From Tyzzerella sp. An114 (lineage in GTDB: Bacteria > Bacillota > Clostridia > Lachnospirales > Anaerotignaceae): a stretch of DNA of 64,000 bases. Where the stretch lies: NCBI RefSeq assembly GCF_002161055.1, contig NZ_NFLT01000005.1:62001-126000 (forward strand). The letters run 5' to 3'. Both the position numbers and the translations under genes were made by a program. This document shows positions 1,241 to 14,099 of the stretch, piece by piece; the first letter of the stretch is position 1; every line of letters begins with the position of its first letter. The notes under the pieces were generated by a model. The model was given only the letters and a program-made list of their open reading frames with translations. It made no database searches and was not told the origin of the DNA.

Positions 1241-1281
1241 GAAAGCCGTTAATTTTAATTAACGGCTTTCTTTGTGTTTTT
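1241..1281 (+). terminator. Rho-independent terminator after glpP
   Basis: A perfect 12-bp inverted repeat (GAAAGCCGTTAA / TTAACGGCTTTC) is followed by a T-rich run. It ends glpP and overlaps the stop of the convergent M60 gene, for which it may also serve, though the U-tract on that strand is poorer. Confidence 0.85.
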
Positions 1282-4200
1282 ATTTAATTATATTCATTTT
1301 GTCAATATTTGATAATATTGTAGCTATTTCAGCACGTGTTGCTGTTCCTTTTGGATTAAATGAACCGTCTGGACGACCATTTATAATTCCTAAAGTTTTC
1401 ATTGCATTTACTGCCTCTGTTGCCCATGAACTTATATCATTATTGTCTGTAAACTCTGTCTGTGCAGTTTCAGGAATTTCAACATTTTTATATTTAAGGT
1501 AGTTGTAAACCATAACTGCAAGTTGTTCTCTTGTTATATCTGAGTTTGGTGCAAATTCGTTTTCTGTTATACCATTTACAATGTTATTTTCTTTAGCCCA
1601 ACCAACATATGGAGCATAGTACATATCTGTTGGAACATCTGTGAAATCTGTTGCTGTTGATACAACATTAGCACTGTCAAATCTTCCTAATACAGTTACA
1701 AGCATTGCTCTTGTCATGTTGTTATCAGGTGCAAATTCATTTTCTGTCATACCTGAGAACCATTTATTTGTGTATGCTTTGTTTACTGCTTCATAGTACC
1801 AAGAGTCTTTGTTTATATCTGTAAATACTTCATCAGCAGAACCAGAATTTGTTCCTGTTTCTGGTGTATTTTCTTCTGGCTGTGTATCTTCAGGATTTGT
1901 CTCCTCAGGTTTTGGCTGAGATGGTTTTGATGAGCTTGAACCGCCTGAACTTCCAGAGCTTGAACTTCCTGAATTGCCATCAACTGTTGTATCAATTGAT
2001 ATTGAACTGTCAACAGTTTCACCGTTTCTCTGTTCAAATGTTTTTGATACAAGAATTGTTTTATCTGTATTTACACTTAAATCAACTGTCTGTGATGATG
2101 AAGATTTCATTGAAAGTGTACCAAATGTAAAGTCTTCACCAAAAGATAATGGTTCATTTGAAACTATATAAATTGATATAGTTCCATTAGCTTTATTAAA
2201 AATACATTTCTTTAATATAGCCTTTGAAGCTTTTTCACTCCAATTCATTGTAACATCAGATATTTTTGAAGGGTCAGATACTTTAAGCTGTGTCTGTGCA
2301 GCTATAAATGAATGACTATCTGTGTTTTTAAGTGTTACAGTTGCTTTCTGTGTACTTTCTTTTTCAAGTATTATATTTGATGAAAGAGTAACAGCCTCTG
2401 AGTTTCCTTCAAATATTAAATCTGAGTCTTCTATTATGGAAGGACTTTCAATAGTTTCATTAGTGCTTTCTTCTGTATCTGTTGTAGGAACTTCTGGCAT
2501 AGGTGTTACTTCAACAACATCAGAAGGAGTTTCTTGTGAATTAGTTTCATCAGAATTTACACCAGAGTCTACATTAGAACCTGTATCAGAATTTTCGTTT
2601 TTATTTGTATCACTTTCAGCAGGTTCCTCTGTTGGATTTTCGTTAGTTTCTTCTTCAGCAGGTAATTCATCTGTTATTCCAGCATCTTCGTTATTTTCTA
2701 CATCTTCATTGTTTTCTGTATCTTCGTTAACAACAGGAGGAAGTTCTTCTTTTTCTTCTTCCTCAACTAAAGGAGGAACTTCTTGTGGTAATTCTGGAAC
2801 TATTTCATCTGTAACAGTGCTTTCTATTTTTAAAGGAGGAAGACTTTCAGGTACATTTACATAGAGAGTATCACTTACAAGTCTTTGTCCTTCAAGAGTT
2901 TCAGCATTGTCAACTCTGTAAAGCTCAGCTTTAACACTTCCTATTGATGATATATCAATTGAGTCATCTATTTTGTAAACCCATGTACCACTTGAAACTT
3001 CTCCGATATTTCCGTTTTCTGGCACTTCTGCAAGTATTACAAATTCACCATTTATAATGTTTCCGTTTTCATCTTTAAGAAGAACAACGTTATAAGCTGG
3101 GTTTCCTTTGTATGTACCTGTAATTACTGTTGAACCAGTTGTCATAACTTCATCTTCACCATGACCATATTTGAAATCTTCTGAAAGTGTTCCCATTCCA
3201 GACTGTAAAAGTTCAACATTATCACCAGTAGGGCCTAAAATGTCAAGCTCTGAGAGAGAAACAGTTGAGTTATTTACAACAAGTTTGATATAAGATGCAT
3301 CATATATATACATACAAGGGTCATTCTCTTTATTAAAGTATATTGTTTCTGTTTCTTTACCAGAGAATGTTCCTGATTTTGCAAGTTTCCAGTCTTTTTT
3401 GTCTGTACTTACATATATACTGTAATCATCTGTTGAAGGTGTCTTTGAAGAATATTTTAAAGCTGTAACCTGTTCTGTATTTCCAAGGTCAAGTATAATT
3501 TCAGCTTTTGTGCTAGAAGTTGTACCTGTGTATGTGTTTGAATAATTATCATCAATAACATCTTTTATTGCTGATATTGTTGCATCTTCACAGTATCCAG
3601 AGTCGTGTCCTGCTTCTATATGCTGGTCATTATCTGAAACCATATTTGTGTCAGCACTCCAACCATCTTTTCCGATACTTCCGTCATGAGAAACTTTTAC
3701 AGAACCGGCTTTTGATACAGATGTTGTATTTAAAAGTCTGTCATATCCAACAACTTCATATTCATAAACTCTGTTGTTTTCTGTCTTTATTGTGTCTGTA
3801 TAGCTTGACTGGTCAGCTGATACAAAAGCTACAACTTTTCCATTTCTTATGATTTCATAGCCAAGCATAGCGTCATCATTAGAGTTTGTATTGTTAAAGT
3901 TTATAGTAACCTGTTTACTGTTATCTGTATAATCAATAGATGAAGTTACTTTTGTTCCTTCAATCATGCCACTTCCACCTGAAAGGCGATAGCTTCTTGA
4001 ATTATCGTCAAGGTACTGTATTTTTTTATCTTCTTTTTCAAATTTATTTGCATAAGATATTGTATCTTGGTTTGGTACAAGTCCCCAAGCCTCAAAGAAT
4101 GGTAAAAGGTTCTTTTCAGCTGCTGCACAAGCAAGACGCATAAAGTTGTTGTCCATATCACTGTTGAGACTTAAACTGTTAGGAGCAGATTGTGGGTCTC

Positions 4201-7200
4201 TTGTATAACTGCTCACTCTTGCATAGAAAAGGTTGTCAAACTGGTCTTGGAATGTATCAAATGTTTTGTAGTTATAGTAGTTATCATAGAACATATGTAA
4301 CTGCCAATACATTGCAAGCTGTGTGAATACATCATCAGATTTTCCTTTTGTGCCTGATGTAACGTGTTTATATACAGCATCATATCCGAAACGAGCTGTT
4401 GAGTTTGTATCATCAGACTGAGCAAGCATTGAGAAATAGTTGTTTGTAACTTCTAAATTAACATATTTTGATGAGTTTATAACGTGTCCAATTTCGTGGG
4501 CAATTCCCCAACCAGAATACTCACCGGAAATATATTTACCATTTTCGTCAGACTGTATAGGAGTTGTTCTGAATAAATCAGGTACAGAATCATACTCAAT
4601 TCCTATATGCTGTGTTGCTGCATACATAAATGCACCTGCAAACATTTTGCTGTAACGAATATTAAGTCTCTGAGAAGGATATCTATTAGTTTTTGTTTCA
4701 TTCTCGTTAAGTCCTCTATGCTGATAGAAAAGGTGTACTTCTTGTTCCATAGCCTCAATAGCTTTAAGAAGCTGTTCAGCTTTATCACCACTGTTAAGAC
4801 CAGCAAGAACCTGTGTAGCAGGGAATGAGAACATCATATTATCCATTACAATGTCTGTAAAGTTTAATGTACAAAGTTTAGGGTCATATCCATATTCTGA
4901 ATGATTTTCATTATGTTTTTCTTCAAGAGAAGATACATGGCTTTCAAGTTTTGATACATAATCCTGTACAAGTTTAAGTTTTTCTTCTCTTGTTTCAGCT
5001 TTTGTTACATCAAGGACAGGGATATTCTGTTCACTTCCAAGACGGATAGAATACTGTTTTGCATCTTTCTTTCCAGAGTATCCTACATAGAGAGAACCGC
5101 CTCTCTCATTTGATGTTGTGGAAGGTGATGTTATTGTTATTTCGTTTCTTCCTGTTTTTAATGTTGTAACTTCGCTGAGCCATTTGTTATGCTCACCGTG
5201 AATTTGTGTTGAGTAAAGTTTTAAGTCTGTTACTGTTCCATCAGCAACTCCCGGACTACCTACATAGAGTATTATTTTATCGCCTTCTTCAGCAGAAATT
5301 CCAAGAGGCTGAAGATTGCTTAAACTCATTGCAAAATCAAGATGACCATCTCCAGCTGATGTTATTGATGTATCAACATTTATTATTGTTGCTGATAAAT
5401 TTCCTTCATTGATAAGTGTTTTTGCTGCATCAATATCTTTCTGGAGAGAAACTTTGTCTGGGTGATATTCGCCATTTCTAGAGTCTGGTGTGTTAAGTCT
5501 TTCTTCAAGAGCTTCAATATCAGAAAGTTCAACACCTTCTGCCAACTCAATATGCATATTATCAGCAAAAAGAGCATCTATGTCATCTTCTAAGCTGTCA
5601 TATTCATATACTTTTATTTCTGAAATAGCAACCTTCATGTCAGGATACCATATACCAACATTAAGCTGGAATGTATCTGTTGTTACAGGCTCTGTAAGTT
5701 TAACATCATAGTATATATTGCCGTTTTCATCAAGTTTCTTTGTAAGATGTTTTACATCTTTTGTAACCATGTTGCCTTCAGCATTTTTATAGTAAAATTT
5801 TACACCGTCATACCATGTTTGGCTAACATGTGGAGCAAATCTTATTGTGTCAAATGTATACTGCTGAGTAAGCTCTATTGTAGAACCTTTAGGGCTAGCA
5901 TAGTGAGAACCACCATCATAATGGTTAACTAAAGTATATGTTGAAGGGTCATTGTCTACTACCGCATTGTCTCCGCCATATACTGTTACTAATGGGTCAG
6001 TTGAGTTTTTAACTGATTTAATATTGTCTGTTAAAACTCCTGGTTCGTCGCCTGTGTTAATAAGTTTATATTTTGGCATTATAGTTGCAACTGAACTTGA
6101 AACAGTAGCCTTATTTATTTCAGAAGGATTACTTTCTCCGATTTTGTTTACACCAGTAATATATATATTGTATGTTTTGTTTGGAGAAAGATTTAAAATT
6201 TTATAGCTTGTAGAAGTTATGTTTGTTACAACTTTATATTCACTTTCTTCTTCAAGTTTATAGTAAACATTGTAGTAGTCTGTGCTGTCCATTTTCTTCC
6301 AGCTTATAGATATGCTTTCAATATCACCTTTAACTGTTACACTTTCTGGAGGAGCTGGAACTTCAGTAGGGTCAAGTGTTATTGTGCGAGGTTCAGAATA
6401 TTTACTTGTCCAATCTCCGTTTACAGACTGAACCATAACTGTATATGGAATACCTGTTTTAAGTTTTTCATCAAGTCTTGTAACAGTAAGGCTTGTTGAG
6501 TCTGTTGAAAATACTTTGCTACTTCCGTTACCACTTACAGACACATTATAGGATGAAACATTAGTCTGTGGAGTCCATTCTACTATAAATGAGTCTTTAC
6601 CAAGAGCTTCAATACGTGTGATTTCAGGAATATTAAGCTCTGGTTCTGGTATTCTGTTTTCCATACCATTTACAAACTCAACTTTTGCTATATCAACAAG
6701 ATTATTTCCGCTTGATGCAGTAACTTTGATTGTTACTTTTTTGATTGCAACCTGTTTTCCAATATTTACAACAACTGTTCCATCAGCTTCTATTGTTGCT
6801 GTTGCACCACTATTGCTTAAAAGTCTCATTCCCTTTGACTGTACAATTGTAGCTTCATAATGATTTCCTTCTGCATCTTCAACATCAATAGTTCCGCCTG
6901 TAATAAGGTTTGATGAGTCTTTTGGTGGCTCAATTACAAAACCATCAGATAATGCATTGTCTGATTTTACTTCAATATCAATCTGAACAGGATTTTCTTC
7001 TGTTATTTCACTATTATTTTTTGGTGCAAGAGATACTGTTGATGCAGTGTCAGATGTTATATCTGAAATATTTCCTGTAACATTTGTATTTTCATCTGCT
7101 GAAGCTGTAAGAACTTCTGGCATAATTGTTTTTACTGTATCTGTATCAGTGTTTCCACCTTTATTTATAGCTATATATGTTAAGTCTGAAATATCTACTT

Positions 7201-7711
7201 TACTATCACCATTAAGGTCATATTTAGCTTCAGAAGAACCATTCTCGATAGCTGATATTAAAGTGTCTGAGTCACTTTCGTTTACAGTGCCATCACCGTT
7301 TATATCACCGATAGCCATAATACCTTTCTGGTTTTCTGATATTGATGAATTGTAATTCATACGGTTGTTATCAAGTGAAAGTGTTGTTATATATGAGCTA
7401 TCTATTTTAATCTGTTTTGTATATGTAGCGTAGTTTTCTGATTTTATTGTTAAAGTATATTCTCCCGGTTTAACTTCTTTTTCAACATGAATATTGTTTG
7501 ATGAAGGAGTAACTGTATCAGTAACTGTATTTTCATTGTTTTTAAGTTCTATTGAAAAATTTTGATTTTTTGTTGGCATTGATAAATTCATATCAAGTAC
7601 GAATTTTCCGTTTTGTGTATCAATATTGTTTAATTCTGCTGCAAGGGCAGTGAAAGGCTGACTTCCTACAACAAAAGATAAAACAATTGGCATAATTTTA
7701 TTTTTTTTCAT
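1280..7711 (-). CDS. Giant SLH-anchored M60-like (enhancin-type) metalloprotease with dockerin-like, FN3, discoidin and cohesin-like modules
   Basis: A 2143-residue secreted protein. Modules in order: signal peptide (about 1-25, ending AALAAE-like); paired Ca-binding dockerin-type motifs GDINGDGTVNESD and DLNGDSKVDISD (about 134-186); two fibronectin III-like domains (about 357-545); an F5/8-type C carbohydrate-binding segment (about 550-705); M60-like gluzincin region (about 897-1210) with zinc motif HEIGH at 1072-1076 and a further glutamate at 1087 in LEVTNN, which fits HExxH-x(8-28)-E; a second F5/8-like segment (about 1374-1487); an acidic Pro/Glu/Asn linker (about 1630-1757); a cohesin-like domain (about 1764-1907); a Gly/Ser linker; and three SLH repeats (1961-2143). 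M60 enzymes of gut bacteria cut mucin-type O-glycoproteins. The SLH repeats would hold it on the cell wall polymer. Ribosome site GGGAGGG precedes the ATG. Substrate is inferred from family. Confidence 0.85.
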   Translation of the reverse strand: MKKNKIMPIVLSFVVGSQPFTALAAELNNIDTQNGKFVLDMNLSMPTKNQNFSIELKNNENTVTDTVTPSSNNIHVEKEVKPGEYTLTIKSENYATYTKQIKIDSSYITTLSLDNNRMNYNSSISENQKGIMAIGDINGDGTVNESDSDTLISAIENGSSEAKYDLNGDSKVDISDLTYIAINKGGNTDTDTVKTIMPEVLTASADENTNVTGNISDITSDTASTVSLAPKNNSEITEENPVQIDIEVKSDNALSDGFVIEPPKDSSNLITGGTIDVEDAEGNHYEATIVQSKGMRLLSNSGATATIEADGTVVVNIGKQVAIKKVTIKVTASSGNNLVDIAKVEFVNGMENRIPEPELNIPEITRIEALGKDSFIVEWTPQTNVSSYNVSVSGNGSSKVFSTDSTSLTVTRLDEKLKTGIPYTVMVQSVNGDWTSKYSEPRTITLDPTEVPAPPESVTVKGDIESISISWKKMDSTDYYNVYYKLEEESEYKVVTNITSTSYKILNLSPNKTYNIYITGVNKIGESNPSEINKATVSSSVATIMPKYKLINTGDEPGVLTDNIKSVKNSTDPLVTVYGGDNAVVDNDPSTYTLVNHYDGGSHYASPKGSTIELTQQYTFDTIRFAPHVSQTWYDGVKFYYKNAEGNMVTKDVKHLTKKLDENGNIYYDVKLTEPVTTDTFQLNVGIWYPDMKVAISEIKVYEYDSLEDDIDALFADNMHIELAEGVELSDIEALEERLNTPDSRNGEYHPDKVSLQKDIDAAKTLINEGNLSATIINVDTSITSAGDGHLDFAMSLSNLQPLGISAEEGDKIILYVGSPGVADGTVTDLKLYSTQIHGEHNKWLSEVTTLKTGRNEITITSPSTTSNERGGSLYVGYSGKKDAKQYSIRLGSEQNIPVLDVTKAETREEKLKLVQDYVSKLESHVSSLEEKHNENHSEYGYDPKLCTLNFTDIVMDNMMFSFPATQVLAGLNSGDKAEQLLKAIEAMEQEVHLFYQHRGLNENETKTNRYPSQRLNIRYSKMFAGAFMYAATQHIGIEYDSVPDLFRTTPIQSDENGKYISGEYSGWGIAHEIGHVINSSKYVNLEVTNNYFSMLAQSDDTNSTARFGYDAVYKHVTSGTKGKSDDVFTQLAMYWQLHMFYDNYYNYKTFDTFQDQFDNLFYARVSSYTRDPQSAPNSLSLNSDMDNNFMRLACAAAEKNLLPFFEAWGLVPNQDTISYANKFEKEDKKIQYLDDNSRSYRLSGGSGMIEGTKVTSSIDYTDNSKQVTINFNNTNSNDDAMLGYEIIRNGKVVAFVSADQSSYTDTIKTENNRVYEYEVVGYDRLLNTTSVSKAGSVKVSHDGSIGKDGWSADTNMVSDNDQHIEAGHDSGYCEDATISAIKDVIDDNYSNTYTGTTSSTKAEIILDLGNTEQVTALKYSSKTPSTDDYSIYVSTDKKDWKLAKSGTFSGKETETIYFNKENDPCMYIYDASYIKLVVNNSTVSLSELDILGPTGDNVELLQSGMGTLSEDFKYGHGEDEVMTTGSTVITGTYKGNPAYNVVLLKDENGNIINGEFVILAEVPENGNIGEVSSGTWVYKIDDSIDISSIGSVKAELYRVDNAETLEGQRLVSDTLYVNVPESLPPLKIESTVTDEIVPELPQEVPPLVEEEEKEELPPVVNEDTENNEDVENNEDAGITDELPAEEETNENPTEEPAESDTNKNENSDTGSNVDSGVNSDETNSQETPSDVVEVTPMPEVPTTDTEESTNETIESPSIIEDSDLIFEGNSEAVTLSSNIILEKESTQKATVTLKNTDSHSFIAAQTQLKVSDPSKISDVTMNWSEKASKAILKKCIFNKANGTISIYIVSNEPLSFGEDFTFGTLSMKSSSSQTVDLSVNTDKTILVSKTFEQRNGETVDSSISIDTTVDGNSGSSSSGSSGGSSSSKPSQPKPEETNPEDTQPEENTPETGTNSGSADEVFTDINKDSWYYEAVNKAYTNKWFSGMTENEFAPDNNMTRAMLVTVLGRFDSANVVSTATDFTDVPTDMYYAPYVGWAKENNIVNGITENEFAPNSDITREQLAVMVYNYLKYKNVEIPETAQTEFTDNNDISSWATEAVNAMKTLGIINGRPDGSFNPKGTATRAEIATILSNIDKMNIIK

Positions 7712-8015
7712 AGTACCCTCCCAAATTTTTAAAAAGTTATATTTTAAATAAAAAATTCTTTTAAATCTATAAAATGTAATTTTGTTGTTATAAATATACC
7801 ATATAAAAATTTAATTAGCAATATTTTGTAGCGTAAAAAAATCCACATAAAAAGTTATGTTTTTTATACAATTTTGAGTTTTATTCGATATAATGTAATT
7901 TTATAACAATATGATAAAATTGAAAATTCTTATTTTTATGGATTTTTTATAAAATATAATATATATTTTCTTAATATATAAGAATATAAAATTATATTTT
8001 AGATATTTAATCAAA
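7712..8015. other. AT-rich divergent intergenic region
   Basis: About 300 bases between the start of the M60 surface protein gene and the repeats in front of the response regulator gene. It is almost pure A/T with many possible -10-like hexamers and no convincing -35 partner. The promoter of the surface protein must lie here but I cannot place it. No open frame with a ribosome site was seen. Confidence 0.5.
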
Positions 8016-8073: not shown

Positions 8074-8748
8074 ATGAGATTGCTTTTGGCTGAAGATGAA
8101 AAAGAGCTTTCAAAAGCCCTTACAGCTATACTTGTACATAATAATTATTCTGTTGATGCTGTATATAATGGTAGAGAGGCTCTTGAATATATAAATTGTG
8201 AAAATTATGATGGTGTTATATTAGATATTATGATGCCTGAAATAGATGGAATTACTGTTTTAAAAAATATAAGAGAAAAGGGGAATAGTGTCCCTGTTAT
8301 AATGCTTACTGCAAAATCTGAAATAGATGACAGAGTTTTGGGGCTTGATTGTGGTGCTGATGATTATTTGACAAAACCTTTTGCTATGAAAGAATTGCTT
8401 GCAAGAATAAGGGCTATGACACGAAGACAAGATGAGATTACAAATTCTGTTTTAAAATTTTCAAATATATCATTAAATCGTGCTACATTTGAATTGTATT
8501 CTGATACAGGTTCTTTTAGATTGGCAAATAAAGAATTTCAAATGTTAGAAATGCTTATGACAAATCCAAGACATCTTATATCAACAGAAAGATTTATGGA
8601 AAAAATATGGGGCTATGACAGTTAAGCTGAAATAAATGTTGTTTGGGTGTATATATCCTATCTTAGAAAAAAATTATCAGCTATAAATGCAAAAGTTAAT
8701 ATAAAAGCTACAAGAAATGCAGGGTATTCTTTGGAGGAGTTTTTATGA
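8074..8748 (+). pseudogene. OmpR/PhoB-family response regulator interrupted by an in-frame TAA
   Basis: The first 183 codons give a receiver domain with phospho-acceptor D51 (in LDIMMPEIDG) and conserved K101 (in LTKPFAM), and the first half of a winged-helix DNA-binding domain ending KIWGYDS. Codon 184 (8623-8625) is TAA. The same frame then stays open to 8746-8748 and encodes AEINVVWVYISYLRKKLS and RNAGYSLEEFL, exactly the recognition helix and wing expected after WGYDSE in this family. The full length would be 224 residues, normal for the family, so TAA most simply replaces GAA. The intact frame ends in an ATGA overlap with the kinase start. As written, the product keeps phospho-relay but lacks the recognition helix. 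Alternatives: a recent loss-of-function mutation or a sequencing error. Confidence 0.85.
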
Positions 8749-10780: not shown

Positions 10781-11500
10781 ATGGGGTATAAGAATACATT
10801 TGAAAGATTTGAAATAAAATTTATTTTAAACTTAAACCAATACAATGAAATAAAAAATGTTTTGTATAAATATATGAAGGGGGATGAATACGGAAACAGT
10901 ACAATATGTAATGTATATTATGATACACCGGATAAACTTATAATAAGAAGGTCTTTGGAAAAACCTGTATATAAAGAAAAATTAAGAGTTAGGAGCTATG
11001 GTGTATCAGATAAAAATAATAATGTTTTTGTTGAACTCAAAAAGAAATATAAGGGTATTGTTTATAAGAGACGTACAGAGATGACACTTCAACAGTCAGA
11101 ATTATATCTTGGTGGGGATATAAATTTTGAAAAATCTTCTCAGATAATGAATGAGATTGATTATTTTATAAAGTTTTATAAAAATATAGAACCTTCTATT
11201 TTTATATCTTATGAAAGAGAAGCGTTTTTTGGAAAATATGATGATAGTTTTAGAATAACATTTGATAGGAACATAATATGGAGAGATTATGACATTTCTC
11301 TTGATAAAGGTGTTTATGGAAACAAACTTATTGATGAAAATACTGTGCTTATGGAGGTTAAAACATCAGAGGGAATACCTCTTTGGTTATTAAAAATACT
11401 AAGTAGAAACCATATATATAAAACATCTTTTTCAAAGTATGGAAATGCTTATAAATATATTATTAATAATAATTTAAAAGGGGGAACAAAGATTGCTTGA
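10781..11500 (+). CDS. VTC-domain polyphosphate polymerase
   Basis: A 239-residue protein with the VTC/triphosphate-tunnel fold used in yeast Vtc4 to make polyphosphate from ATP. Features seen: N-terminal ERFEIKFIL, the STICNVYYDTPDKLIIRRSLEKP region, basic tunnel strands EKLRVRSYG and VFVELKKKYKGIVYKRR, and the late acidic strand TVLMEVKTSEGIPLW that carries the metal-binding glutamate. The alternation of charged residues on beta strands fits the tunnel. Ribosome site AGAGAGGAGAG precedes the ATG. The end overlaps the DUF4956 gene by 8 bases, so the two are translationally coupled, an arrangement common in Firmicutes and Actinobacteria. Polymerase activity is known for some bacterial VTC proteins and is inferred here. 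Confidence 0.82.
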   Translation: MGYKNTFERFEIKFILNLNQYNEIKNVLYKYMKGDEYGNSTICNVYYDTPDKLIIRRSLEKPVYKEKLRVRSYGVSDKNNNVFVELKKKYKGIVYKRRTEMTLQQSELYLGGDINFEKSSQIMNEIDYFIKFYKNIEPSIFISYEREAFFGKYDDSFRITFDRNIIWRDYDISLDKGVYGNKLIDENTVLMEVKTSEGIPLWLLKILSRNHIYKTSFSKYGNAYKYIINNNLKGGTKIA

Positions 11501-12188
11501 CACAATTTTTAATGGGGTATTTGATACAACCTTACAAGTAAATGTATCTATTGATAAATTTATGATTTGTATTATTTCATCAGTTATATGTGGTATTGTA
11601 ACAGCTTTTGCATATACAAGAAAAGGAAGATATACATCAGGTTTTGTTGCAACTCTCGCATCATTACCACCTGTCGTATGTGTTGTTATAATGGCTGTAA
11701 ATGGTAATATAGGTGCTGGAGTTGCTGTTGCTGGAGCTTTTAGTCTTGTAAGATTTCGTTCTGTTCCGGGAACTGCAAAGGAGATATGTGCTATATTTGT
11801 GGCAATGGGAACAGGTCTTGTTTCAGGAATGGGATATATTGCATATGCTATTTTATTTTCGGTTTTGATGGGAATACTTACAGTAATATATTCAAATATG
11901 GATTTTGGTGCGGAAAAATCAAAGAAACGTGAAAAAACAATGTCTATAACAATTCCTGAAGATTTGGATTATACAAGTATATTTGATGATATATTTGCAA
12001 CATATACAAAAAAATATGAGCTTGTAAATGTGAAAACGACAAATATGGGAAGTCTTTTTAAATTGACATACAATATTATACTTAACAATGAAGATTGTGA
12101 GAAAAAACTTATAGATGCAGTTCGTGTTAGAAATGGAAATCTTGAGATAGTTTCATCATACAGAGATATGGGAACATATGAGTTATAG
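11493..12188 (+). CDS. DUF4956 membrane protein
   Basis: A 231-residue protein with about four membrane helices (roughly 22-42, 50-72, 75-95 and 105-135) containing the conserved core SLVRFRSVPGTAKEICAIF, followed by a soluble C-terminal domain of about 90 residues. This is the DUF4956 family, nearly always encoded beside a VTC-domain protein. Start is TTG at 11493: the AAAAGGGGG ribosome site ends 8 bases upstream and the frame overlaps the end of the VTC gene. The function is unknown; genomic linkage suggests that it handles the polyphosphate product or passes a signal at the membrane, which is inference. Confidence 0.8.
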   Translation: MLDTIFNGVFDTTLQVNVSIDKFMICIISSVICGIVTAFAYTRKGRYTSGFVATLASLPPVVCVVIMAVNGNIGAGVAVAGAFSLVRFRSVPGTAKEICAIFVAMGTGLVSGMGYIAYAILFSVLMGILTVIYSNMDFGAEKSKKREKTMSITIPEDLDYTSIFDDIFATYTKKYELVNVKTTNMGSLFKLTYNIILNNEDCEKKLIDAVRVRNGNLEIVSSYRDMGTYEL

Positions 12189-12200
12189 GAGGAATTTTTT

Positions 12201-14099
12201 ATGAAGAGAAAGCTACTTACATCTGTAATGATTATCACTTTTTTGATATCATTATTTACAGGTTGTAATGGTAATACAAATAGTAATTCGGAACAAAATA
12301 ATAGTAATCAGGTTGAAACTTTGGAAAGTGAAAATGCAGGTATACTTGATACATCAAATATGTTTACAGATGAAGATATGAACATATCATATGATGAAAG
12401 TACAGCTTTAAAAATAAATCTTTCTGATATAAATTCTATTGAAATAGGAAATGGAGTTTCTGTTGAAAATGGAGTTGTTACAATTTCATCAGGTGGTACA
12501 TATATATTAAGTGGAAGTTTATCAGAAGGACAGTTAGTTGTTGATATAACAAATAAAGATGATGTTAAAATTGTTTTGGATAATGTTGATATAACAAGTA
12601 GTTCATCTGCACCTTTATATATAAAAGAGGCTGGAAACGTTTATGTTACAATGTCTGAAAATTCAGTCAACACTCTTTCAAATACAGGAGAATTTTTAAG
12701 TGACGGAGAAAATAACATTGATGGTGTTGTATTTTCAAAATCAGATATAACATTTAACGGAAATGGTATATTAAATATAAATACAAATACAGAATATGGT
12801 CATGGCATTGTGTCAAAGGATAGTGTTATATTTACTAGCGGAACATATAATATAAATTCCTCAGGTCATGGAATTTCAGGAAAAGATGATGTAAGAATTG
12901 CTTATGGTGATTTTGTTATAAATTCAGGTAAAGACGGAATACACAGTGAAAATTCAGATGACGCTTCAAAAGGTTATGTTTATATTGTTGATGGAACATA
13001 TAATATAAATTCTGGATATGATGGAATAGATGGTGTATATACTGTACAGATAAATTCAGGTGAATTTAATATTGTATCTGGTGGAGGAAGCGAAAACACA
13101 GAAATTACTTACAGTGAAAGTGGAGATACGGCCAGTACAAAAGGTATAAAATCTGACGAAGATATGTTTATAAATAATGGTAAATATAATATTAATTCCT
13201 ATGATGATGCAATACATTCAAATGGAAATATATTTATAAATAACGGAACATTTAGCATAATGACAGGTGATGACGGTATTCATTCAGATTTAGAAGTTAC
13301 TGTGAATGGTGGAGATATAAATATATCAAAATCATATGAAGGAATAGAAGGTCAAACAGTAAATATAGAAAATGGAAATATTTATATTATGTCTGATGAT
13401 GACGGTATAAATTCAGCCGGCGGAAATGATTCATCAGGAATTGCTGATAGACAAGGAAGAATGAAAGATAGTTTTGCTGTAAATGAAAATTGCAATATAA
13501 ATATAAAGGGCGGAAATATAACAATAAATGCTGAAGGTGACGGCATAGACTCCAATGGAAATCTTTATATTACAGGTGGAGAAACATATATTTATGCTTC
13601 TGAAAGAGGAGGAAATGGAGCTTTAGACTATAATGGAGAGGGCACAATCACAGGAGGAATTGTTGCTGCTTCTGGTATAAGTGGAATGATGCAGAATTTT
13701 GGTGAAAATTCAACTCAAGGCTCTATACTTTTATCTTCACAAAGTATGCAAAGTGGAGTTGTCTCTGTTACAGACAGTAATGGAAATAGTATTATAGAGT
13801 TTCAACCAGAAAAACAATATAATAGTATTGTTGTAAGCACTCCGGATATTATTGACGGTGGAACATATAATATAAATATGGGAACAGAAAATACAAGTGT
13901 TACAATGAGTGGTCTTATATATGGAAGTGGTGAAAATATGGGAGGTCATGGCGGTAGAGGTATGAGCCCTAACGGACAAATTCCAGAAAAAACAAATGGA
14001 GAGAGACCGGAAGGAGAGCCTAAAGAATTTAATGGAGAAGAACCAAAAGAGCCTCCACAGATGAGAGATAATGCTAATGCAAATGATACACAACAATAA
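12201..14099 (+). CDS. DUF4353 (carbohydrate-binding-like) repeat lipoprotein
   Basis: A 632-residue exported lipoprotein. The signal peptide ends in lipobox LFTGC with cysteine 22. The body is made of short parallel-beta-helix-like repeats centred on (D/Y)DGI(H/D/N)S-x-G, for example KDGIHSENSDD, YDGIDGVY, DDAIHSNGNIF, DDGIHSDLEV, DDGINSAGGN and GDGIDSNGNLY, typical of DUF4353. The last 60 residues are a Gly/Pro/Glu-rich tail with MGGHGGRGMSPNG and repeated GE(R/E)P motifs. It lies 12 bases after the DUF4956 gene with a good ribosome site (AGGAGG). Such proteins usually accompany VTC, DUF4956 and a CotH kinase; no CotH gene is present here. A cell-surface or spore-surface structural role is possible but not shown. 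Confidence 0.78.
   Translation: MKRKLLTSVMIITFLISLFTGCNGNTNSNSEQNNSNQVETLESENAGILDTSNMFTDEDMNISYDESTALKINLSDINSIEIGNGVSVENGVVTISSGGTYILSGSLSEGQLVVDITNKDDVKIVLDNVDITSSSSAPLYIKEAGNVYVTMSENSVNTLSNTGEFLSDGENNIDGVVFSKSDITFNGNGILNINTNTEYGHGIVSKDSVIFTSGTYNINSSGHGISGKDDVRIAYGDFVINSGKDGIHSENSDDASKGYVYIVDGTYNINSGYDGIDGVYTVQINSGEFNIVSGGGSENTEITYSESGDTASTKGIKSDEDMFINNGKYNINSYDDAIHSNGNIFINNGTFSIMTGDDGIHSDLEVTVNGGDINISKSYEGIEGQTVNIENGNIYIMSDDDGINSAGGNDSSGIADRQGRMKDSFAVNENCNINIKGGNITINAEGDGIDSNGNLYITGGETYIYASERGGNGALDYNGEGTITGGIVAASGISGMMQNFGENSTQGSILLSSQSMQSGVVSVTDSNGNSIIEFQPEKQYNSIVVSTPDIIDGGTYNINMGTENTSVTMSGLIYGSGENMGGHGGRGMSPNGQIPEKTNGERPEGEPKEFNGEEPKEPPQMRDNANANDTQQ

Follow-up and report, generated by a model that had tools for sequence, protein, structure and literature searches.

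A dockerin, an M60 peptidase, a cohesin-like domain and SLH repeats on one protein of Tyzzerella sp. An114, a probable fusion of an enzyme with its surface anchor

What could a dockerin and a cohesin-like domain be doing on one and the same surface protease? The question is raised by a large gene in a stretch of 64,000 nucleotides from Tyzzerella sp. An114 (contig NZ_NFLT01000005.1, positions 62,001 to 126,000; hereafter, the window). Its open reading frame (ORF; 1280..7711, minus strand) starts with ATG, is intact, and encodes 2143 residues. We consider it likely that this window protein is a two-gene surface-attachment module fused into one chain, in which dockerin and cohesin would bind each other, within or between copies, and the protease would act on a mucin-like substrate.

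Modules of the window protein

A preliminary description had placed a dockerin and a cohesin together on an SLH-anchored M60 enzyme. This layout was upheld, with the SLH, M60, and dockerin parts called by Pfam and the cohesin recognized by its fold. The features are, in window coordinates:

1280..7711, minus strand: whole ORF, a fused X-dockerin, M60 peptidase, cohesin, and SLH surface protein of 2143 residues.
7637..7711, minus strand: predicted signal peptide, residues 1-25 (MKKNKIMPIVLSFVVGSQPFTALAA), judged by eye from the sequence.
7367..7612, minus strand: Ig-like domain, residues about 34-115, X-module-like (weak PEGA and CarboxypepD_reg matches, predicted model, Foldseek matches to X-dockerin chains).
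7154..7318, minus strand: dockerin, residues 132-186, with Ca2+ loops at 136-147 and 165-176 (Pfam Dockerin_1, predicted model, conservation).
6656..7135, minus strand: CBM32-like domain of F5/8C fold, residues about 193-352 (VIA match to Clostridium perfringens NanJ CBM32; Pfam-negative).
6107..6634, minus strand: two fibronectin type III domains, residues about 360-535 (Pfam fn3, alignment).
5597..6064, minus strand: discoidin-like region, residues about 550-705, placed by the preliminary description, position, and alignment, without a domain call of its own.
4022..4999, minus strand: M60 catalytic region, residues about 905-1230 (Pfam M60; match to the solved structure 7jfs).
4484..4498, minus strand: zinc motif HEIGH, residues 1072-1076, with the third ligand, glutamate E1087, nearby (sequence, alignment).
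3212..3634, minus strand: F5/8C (CBM32) domain, residues about 1360-1500 (Pfam F5_F8_type_C).
2396..2845, minus strand: acidic low-complexity linker, residues 1623-1772; the fusion junction falls at its start or close by, at the point where the split relatives stop.
1997..2398, minus strand: cohesin-fold domain, residues about 1772-1905 (predicted model, Foldseek, VIA, relatives' profile).
1310..1834, minus strand: three SLH domains, residues about 1960-2134 (Pfam SLH).

For the dockerin, proposed earlier for residues 134-186, the evidence is direct. Pfam Dockerin_1 (PF00404) matched residues 135-178 above its cut-off (26.5 vs. 22.9 bits, E 7.6e-6; 33.3 bits in the genome search). The Ca2+ ligands stand at positions 1, 3, 5, and 12 of both loops (D136/N138/D140/D147 and D165/N167/D169/D176), which keep these positions across 69 sequences, and the helices of the loop-helix repeats are present in the predicted model of residues 30-356 (predicted local distance difference test, pLDDT, 93.5). 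All homologues whose N-terminus is intact have a dockerin.

In Foldseek, the same model matched the X-dockerin chains 2b59_B, 5k39_B, 5g5d_B, and 5m0y_B with target template modelling scores (TM-scores) of 0.59-0.65. These matches span 165-174 columns, beyond a dockerin's own length, and thus suggest an X-module-dockerin dyad, in which the Ig-like domain ahead of the dockerin would resemble the X-module of type II dyads. Type II X-module rows were absent from the VIA list of the N-terminal model, which was filled by the CBM32-like part (best Z 14.9, to the NanJ CBM32).

The cohesin, expected at residues 1764-1907, was recovered by structure. The AlphaFold2 model of residues 1762-1910, built with 71 relatives, reached a pLDDT of 87.9 and a predicted TM-score of 0.80. 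Its top 36 solved structures in Foldseek were all cohesins (best E 3.1e-6), as were rows 1-45 of the VIA list, where C. perfringens 2vo8 came top (Z 13.3 over 125 residues), the first non-cohesin appeared at Z 9.0, and type I and C. perfringens cohesins ranked above type II. The Pfam cohesin profile (PF00963) had no match in the window protein or its genome, and its best over 72 family members was only E 0.013. Pfam, PDB-sequence, and profile searches with the domain found no known family, and it was recognized by structure only. On the predicted model, this segment is a cohesin by fold that the Pfam cohesin profile misses, and we class it as cohesin-like.

Homology to the relatives' domain was clear once a profile from 61 separate genes only was used: it matched the window protein at residues 1778-1895 (E 3.7e-16). 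The relatives' profile scored 45.3 bits on the window segment against 7.3 for the best of 1000 shuffles of the region, so the match is not due to chance. A profile-profile comparison of four fused and four split domains had been only suggestive (probability 59) and is superseded by the 61-sequence profile.

At the catalytic level, Peptidase_M60 (PF13402) matched residues 950-1210 (65.2 bits vs. a cut-off of 25.8, E 8.8e-18). The zinc-site residues H1072, E1073, H1076, and the downstream E1087 are in place, as previously stated; HEIGH and E1087 are invariant in a 7-sequence alignment, except for one relative with M for I. The nearest solved structures include C. perfringens ZmpB (7jfs, E 4.1e-23), and from kin such as this we infer that the substrate is an O-glycosylated mucin-like protein.

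Among the remaining modules, Pfam SLH matched in three stretches (114.1 bits, E 2.8e-33), giving the three repeats of an SLH surface protein, and fn3 matched at E 2.1e-14. Regarding the two discoidin modules described before, one is backed by Pfam F5/8C at residues 1385-1462 (E 1.6e-6), but the count may be three, given the extra CBM32-like fold near residues 193-352. NCBIfam had no match in the window protein.

Partners, gene pairs, and one fusion

If the cohesin-like domain held other enzymes of the cell, these should carry dockerins. The window's own genome (2.75 Mb, 98.75% complete, counts from profile searches) holds exactly one detectable dockerin and, by the family profile, one cohesin-like domain, both on the window protein, together with one M60 peptidase. 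It contains no Pfam cohesin, and the several-cohesin scaffoldin with several dockerin enzymes that marks a cellulosome or mucinolysome was not found in it. Matched M60-bearing genomes of the same family have one dockerin each, and so does Hungatella hathewayi DSM 13479, where a search for Pfam cohesins found none. The fused relatives G079, G080, G084, and G085 carry more dockerins as well as Pfam cohesins, with about 12 dockerin stretches each in G084 and G085. The pair can be called private in the species of the window and in several of the split-form species, but not in every relative.

The origin of the window protein is best seen in its relatives, all from gut Clostridia, which were collected by a scan of genome contigs (best 80 of 500 confirmed). 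Two of the 80 loci run into a contig edge and were left out. In 69 of the 78 assessable loci, the dockerin-M60 gene ends before the cohesin, and the gene that follows it on that strand, at a median gap of 22 base pairs, opens with a homologous cohesin-like domain. The neighbour encodes a small secreted protein with a single such domain and usually a surface anchor of wall or membrane type. Six loci are fused; L044 is also fused, with a broken frame, and L048 and L049 belong to the fused type too, with a cohesin-like segment that has diverged. Altogether, the cohesin-like domain lies beside the dockerin protein or on it in 78/78 loci.

Close relatives repeat both arrangements. Two congeners share the architecture of the window protein. 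Four genomes of other genera in the family have an M60 protein that ends after the last beta domain, followed directly by a gene for a secreted SLH protein containing a small beta domain. Among the separate proteins the C-terminal anchors differ: choline-binding repeats (L066, L103), SLH domains (L037), and motif-based calls of sortase-like signals and hydrophobic tails in others. Anchor type varies while the cohesin-like domain is retained, which fits a holder that places the enzyme on the surface, short of proof.

In the tree, the fused forms are all set apart from the others by a branch supported at 100. Rooting on three split outgroups places the fused clade within the split forms. Fusion is thus the derived state, and the window protein is a fused enzyme and anchor pair.

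Both modules have stayed under constraint afterwards. Five fused pairs at M60 distances of 0.23-0.27 have dockerin distances of 0.23-0.58 and cohesin distances of 0.33-0.54; split pairs at M60 distances of 0.2-0.3 average 0.44 and 0.63, respectively. The ratio of non-synonymous to synonymous substitution rates (dN/dS) is below 0.5 for dockerin and cohesin wherever unsaturated. Judged from these sequence comparisons, neither module is relaxed after fusion.

Some loci differ in detail. L048 has a second, classical C-terminal dockerin (residues 1953-2009 of 2016) after its diverged cohesin-like segment, and L049 is alike; their genomes also hold multi-Pfam-cohesin proteins and 12 to 22 dockerin stretches. 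The anchor proteins of L118 and L105 contain a FIVAR domain (residues 204-264 in each) between the cohesin-like domain and the C-terminus. At L039 (1442-5958, genome G008), one internal TGA stop cuts the M60 gene into two ORFs beside an intact anchor gene. The fused-type protein of L044 is split between two reading frames late in the M60 region (7701-7786), through a broken gene or an assembly error.

Preferred reading and its alternatives

We propose that the split relatives make a secreted M60 protease, which carries an X-module-dockerin dyad at its N-terminus, and, from the adjoining gene, a cohesin-like anchor protein. The dockerin would most likely bind the neighbour's cohesin and so keep the protease at the cell surface. 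In the window lineage, the enzyme and anchor genes would have been joined, making the attachment through SLH covalent. The dockerin-cohesin pair of the fused protein could then close on itself or link copies, and the 150-residue acidic linker before the cohesin would permit both. Self-association had been suggested by the preliminary description and, within one molecule or between copies, is the best-supported reading of the fused pair, since both modules are still constrained after fusion. A wider extension, which we regard as rather doubtful, would be that Pfam-invisible private cohesin-dockerin pairs holding a single M60 protease are widespread in gut Clostridia and that the fused protein, rather than being a plain anchor, joins its copies head to tail in a network on the cell.

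Several points weigh against this proposal. Covariation is weak: the dockerin's partial correlation of 0.36 with the cohesin is matched by that of the adjacent Ig-like domain, and the other segments all correlate as well in partial Mantel tests. Co-divergence of dockerin and cohesin was dropped as evidence of binding because the partial Mantel test did not single out the dockerin. The fork that joins the fused forms with 14 split rows is supported at only 80 (FastTree). Neighbours were counted with a profile derived from those very genes, which makes their mutual homology a result and not a blind test, and the anchors at most loci were assigned by motif.

The two modules may also be relics that no longer bind after fusion and act as spacers. 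Covalent SLH anchoring would make a docking step superfluous, and the dockerins of the window protein and L042 are only 53% identical while their M60 cores are 81% identical. However, the Ca2+ loop positions are retained, and at equal M60 distance neither module diverges faster than in the split forms, the cohesin if anything more slowly, which makes this unlikely. It is quite improbable that the modules are not a docking pair, with the cohesin fold binding carbohydrate or wall material and the dockerin stabilizing the N-terminus through Ca2+. The cohesin fold is related to CBM2- and CBM3-type jelly rolls, and Pfam does not call the domain a cohesin. Yet the fold matches are specifically to cohesins, pairing with the X-dockerin enzyme is strict throughout the family, and anchor modules are swapped while the cohesin persists.

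Partners outside the protein would be another answer. Related gut Clostridia (G079, G080, G084, G085) have scaffoldins and many dockerin enzymes, and mucinolysomes are described in Limousia (PMC12997984), so the cohesin or dockerin might dock proteins of other gut species, or the dockerin might plug into a neighbour's scaffoldin. We find this very improbable, as several split-form genomes, like that of the window, have only this one pair, and the cohesin accompanies the dockerin protein in every assessable locus. The preliminary description had also raised a cellulosome-like platform docking further enzymes of the same cell. An anchored cohesin could in principle take other dockerin enzymes, and the fused relatives G084 and G085 have dockerins in number, but the one detectable dockerin of the window's genome sits on the window protein, which leaves no other enzyme of the cell for it to dock. 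The genome search that had been suggested for other dockerin or cohesin proteins found none, and a multi-enzyme platform in this genome is rejected on its counts (one detectable dockerin, one cohesin-like domain, no Pfam cohesin); we leave such a platform a very small likelihood.

Relation to known systems and other loci

Cohesin and dockerin on one chain are already known, as are dockerin peptidases of gut bacteria. The premise that the two normally sit on different proteins was therefore too strong: A. cellulolyticus ScaK has SLH, two cohesins, and two dockerins on one polypeptide (PMC3413522), and a C. perfringens GH31 protein carries both modules (PMC12997984). ScaK and the ScaO-type scaffoldins with peptidase-like modules resemble the window protein in this combination (ScaK also in its SLH). 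However, they belong to large many-partner cellulosome systems, whereas the window's genome has one cohesin and one dockerin, both on an M60 enzyme.

A close mechanical likeness is the type II pair of C. thermocellum, in which CipA is bound to anchoring cohesins through its X-dockerin (PMC5141474). As in CipA-SdbA, one partner carries an Ig-like module and a dockerin, its counterpart has one cohesin and SLH, and surface attachment would be the outcome. In contrast, the window system would attach a single protease rather than a scaffoldin, its partners are adjacent genes or one fused protein, and its cohesin's fold matches rank type I and C. perfringens above type II.

Regarding host glycans, the ZmpB-type M60 O-glycopeptidases and cohesin/dockerin complexes of C. 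perfringens (7jfs, 2vo8) share the M60 core with CBM32 modules and provide the nearest cohesin folds, and the GH31 protein shows that one host-glycan enzyme can carry both modules (PMC12997984). The window protein differs by its X-module-like domain, its SLH anchor, and a private pair derived from fusion with the anchor gene. The Limousia mucinolysome likewise ties dockerin peptidases of gut Clostridia to the surface via cohesins, in a host mucin context (PMC12997984), but it is a multi-enzyme scaffoldin system, while the window's genome has one dockerin and no scaffoldin. For the adjacent-gene pair, its unrecognized cohesin, and the single fusion, we found no description among the open-licence papers searched.

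Cohesin-dockerin pairs are known mainly from multi-enzyme machines for plant fibre. The version proposed here would have one enzyme and one anchor, encoded side by side in many gut Clostridia, among them the cultured H. hathewayi, and the standard profile misses its cohesin half. It offers a cheap and direct test of how commensals retain a probable mucin protease on their surface. Besides, the fused form would be a natural case of a non-covalent pair made covalent with both halves still under selection.

Elsewhere in the genome of the window (G000), three more giant SLH-bearing open frames contain F5/8C domains, on contigs C1 (about 6.7-11.8 kb), C3 (about 34.8-37.9 kb), and C45 (about 21.0-24.8 kb), and are possibly further host-glycan enzymes. 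Within the window, a response regulator (8074-8625, plus strand) has a DNA-binding domain that follows the Pfam model only as far as position 38 of 77. Beyond the stop at 8623-8625, its frame carries on with the remainder of a typical sequence, so that either an in-frame stop breaks the gene or the assembly is in error. Finally, genes for a VTC-domain protein, a DUF4956 protein, and a Cthe_2159 carbohydrate-binding protein stand in a row at 10781-14099 (plus strand).

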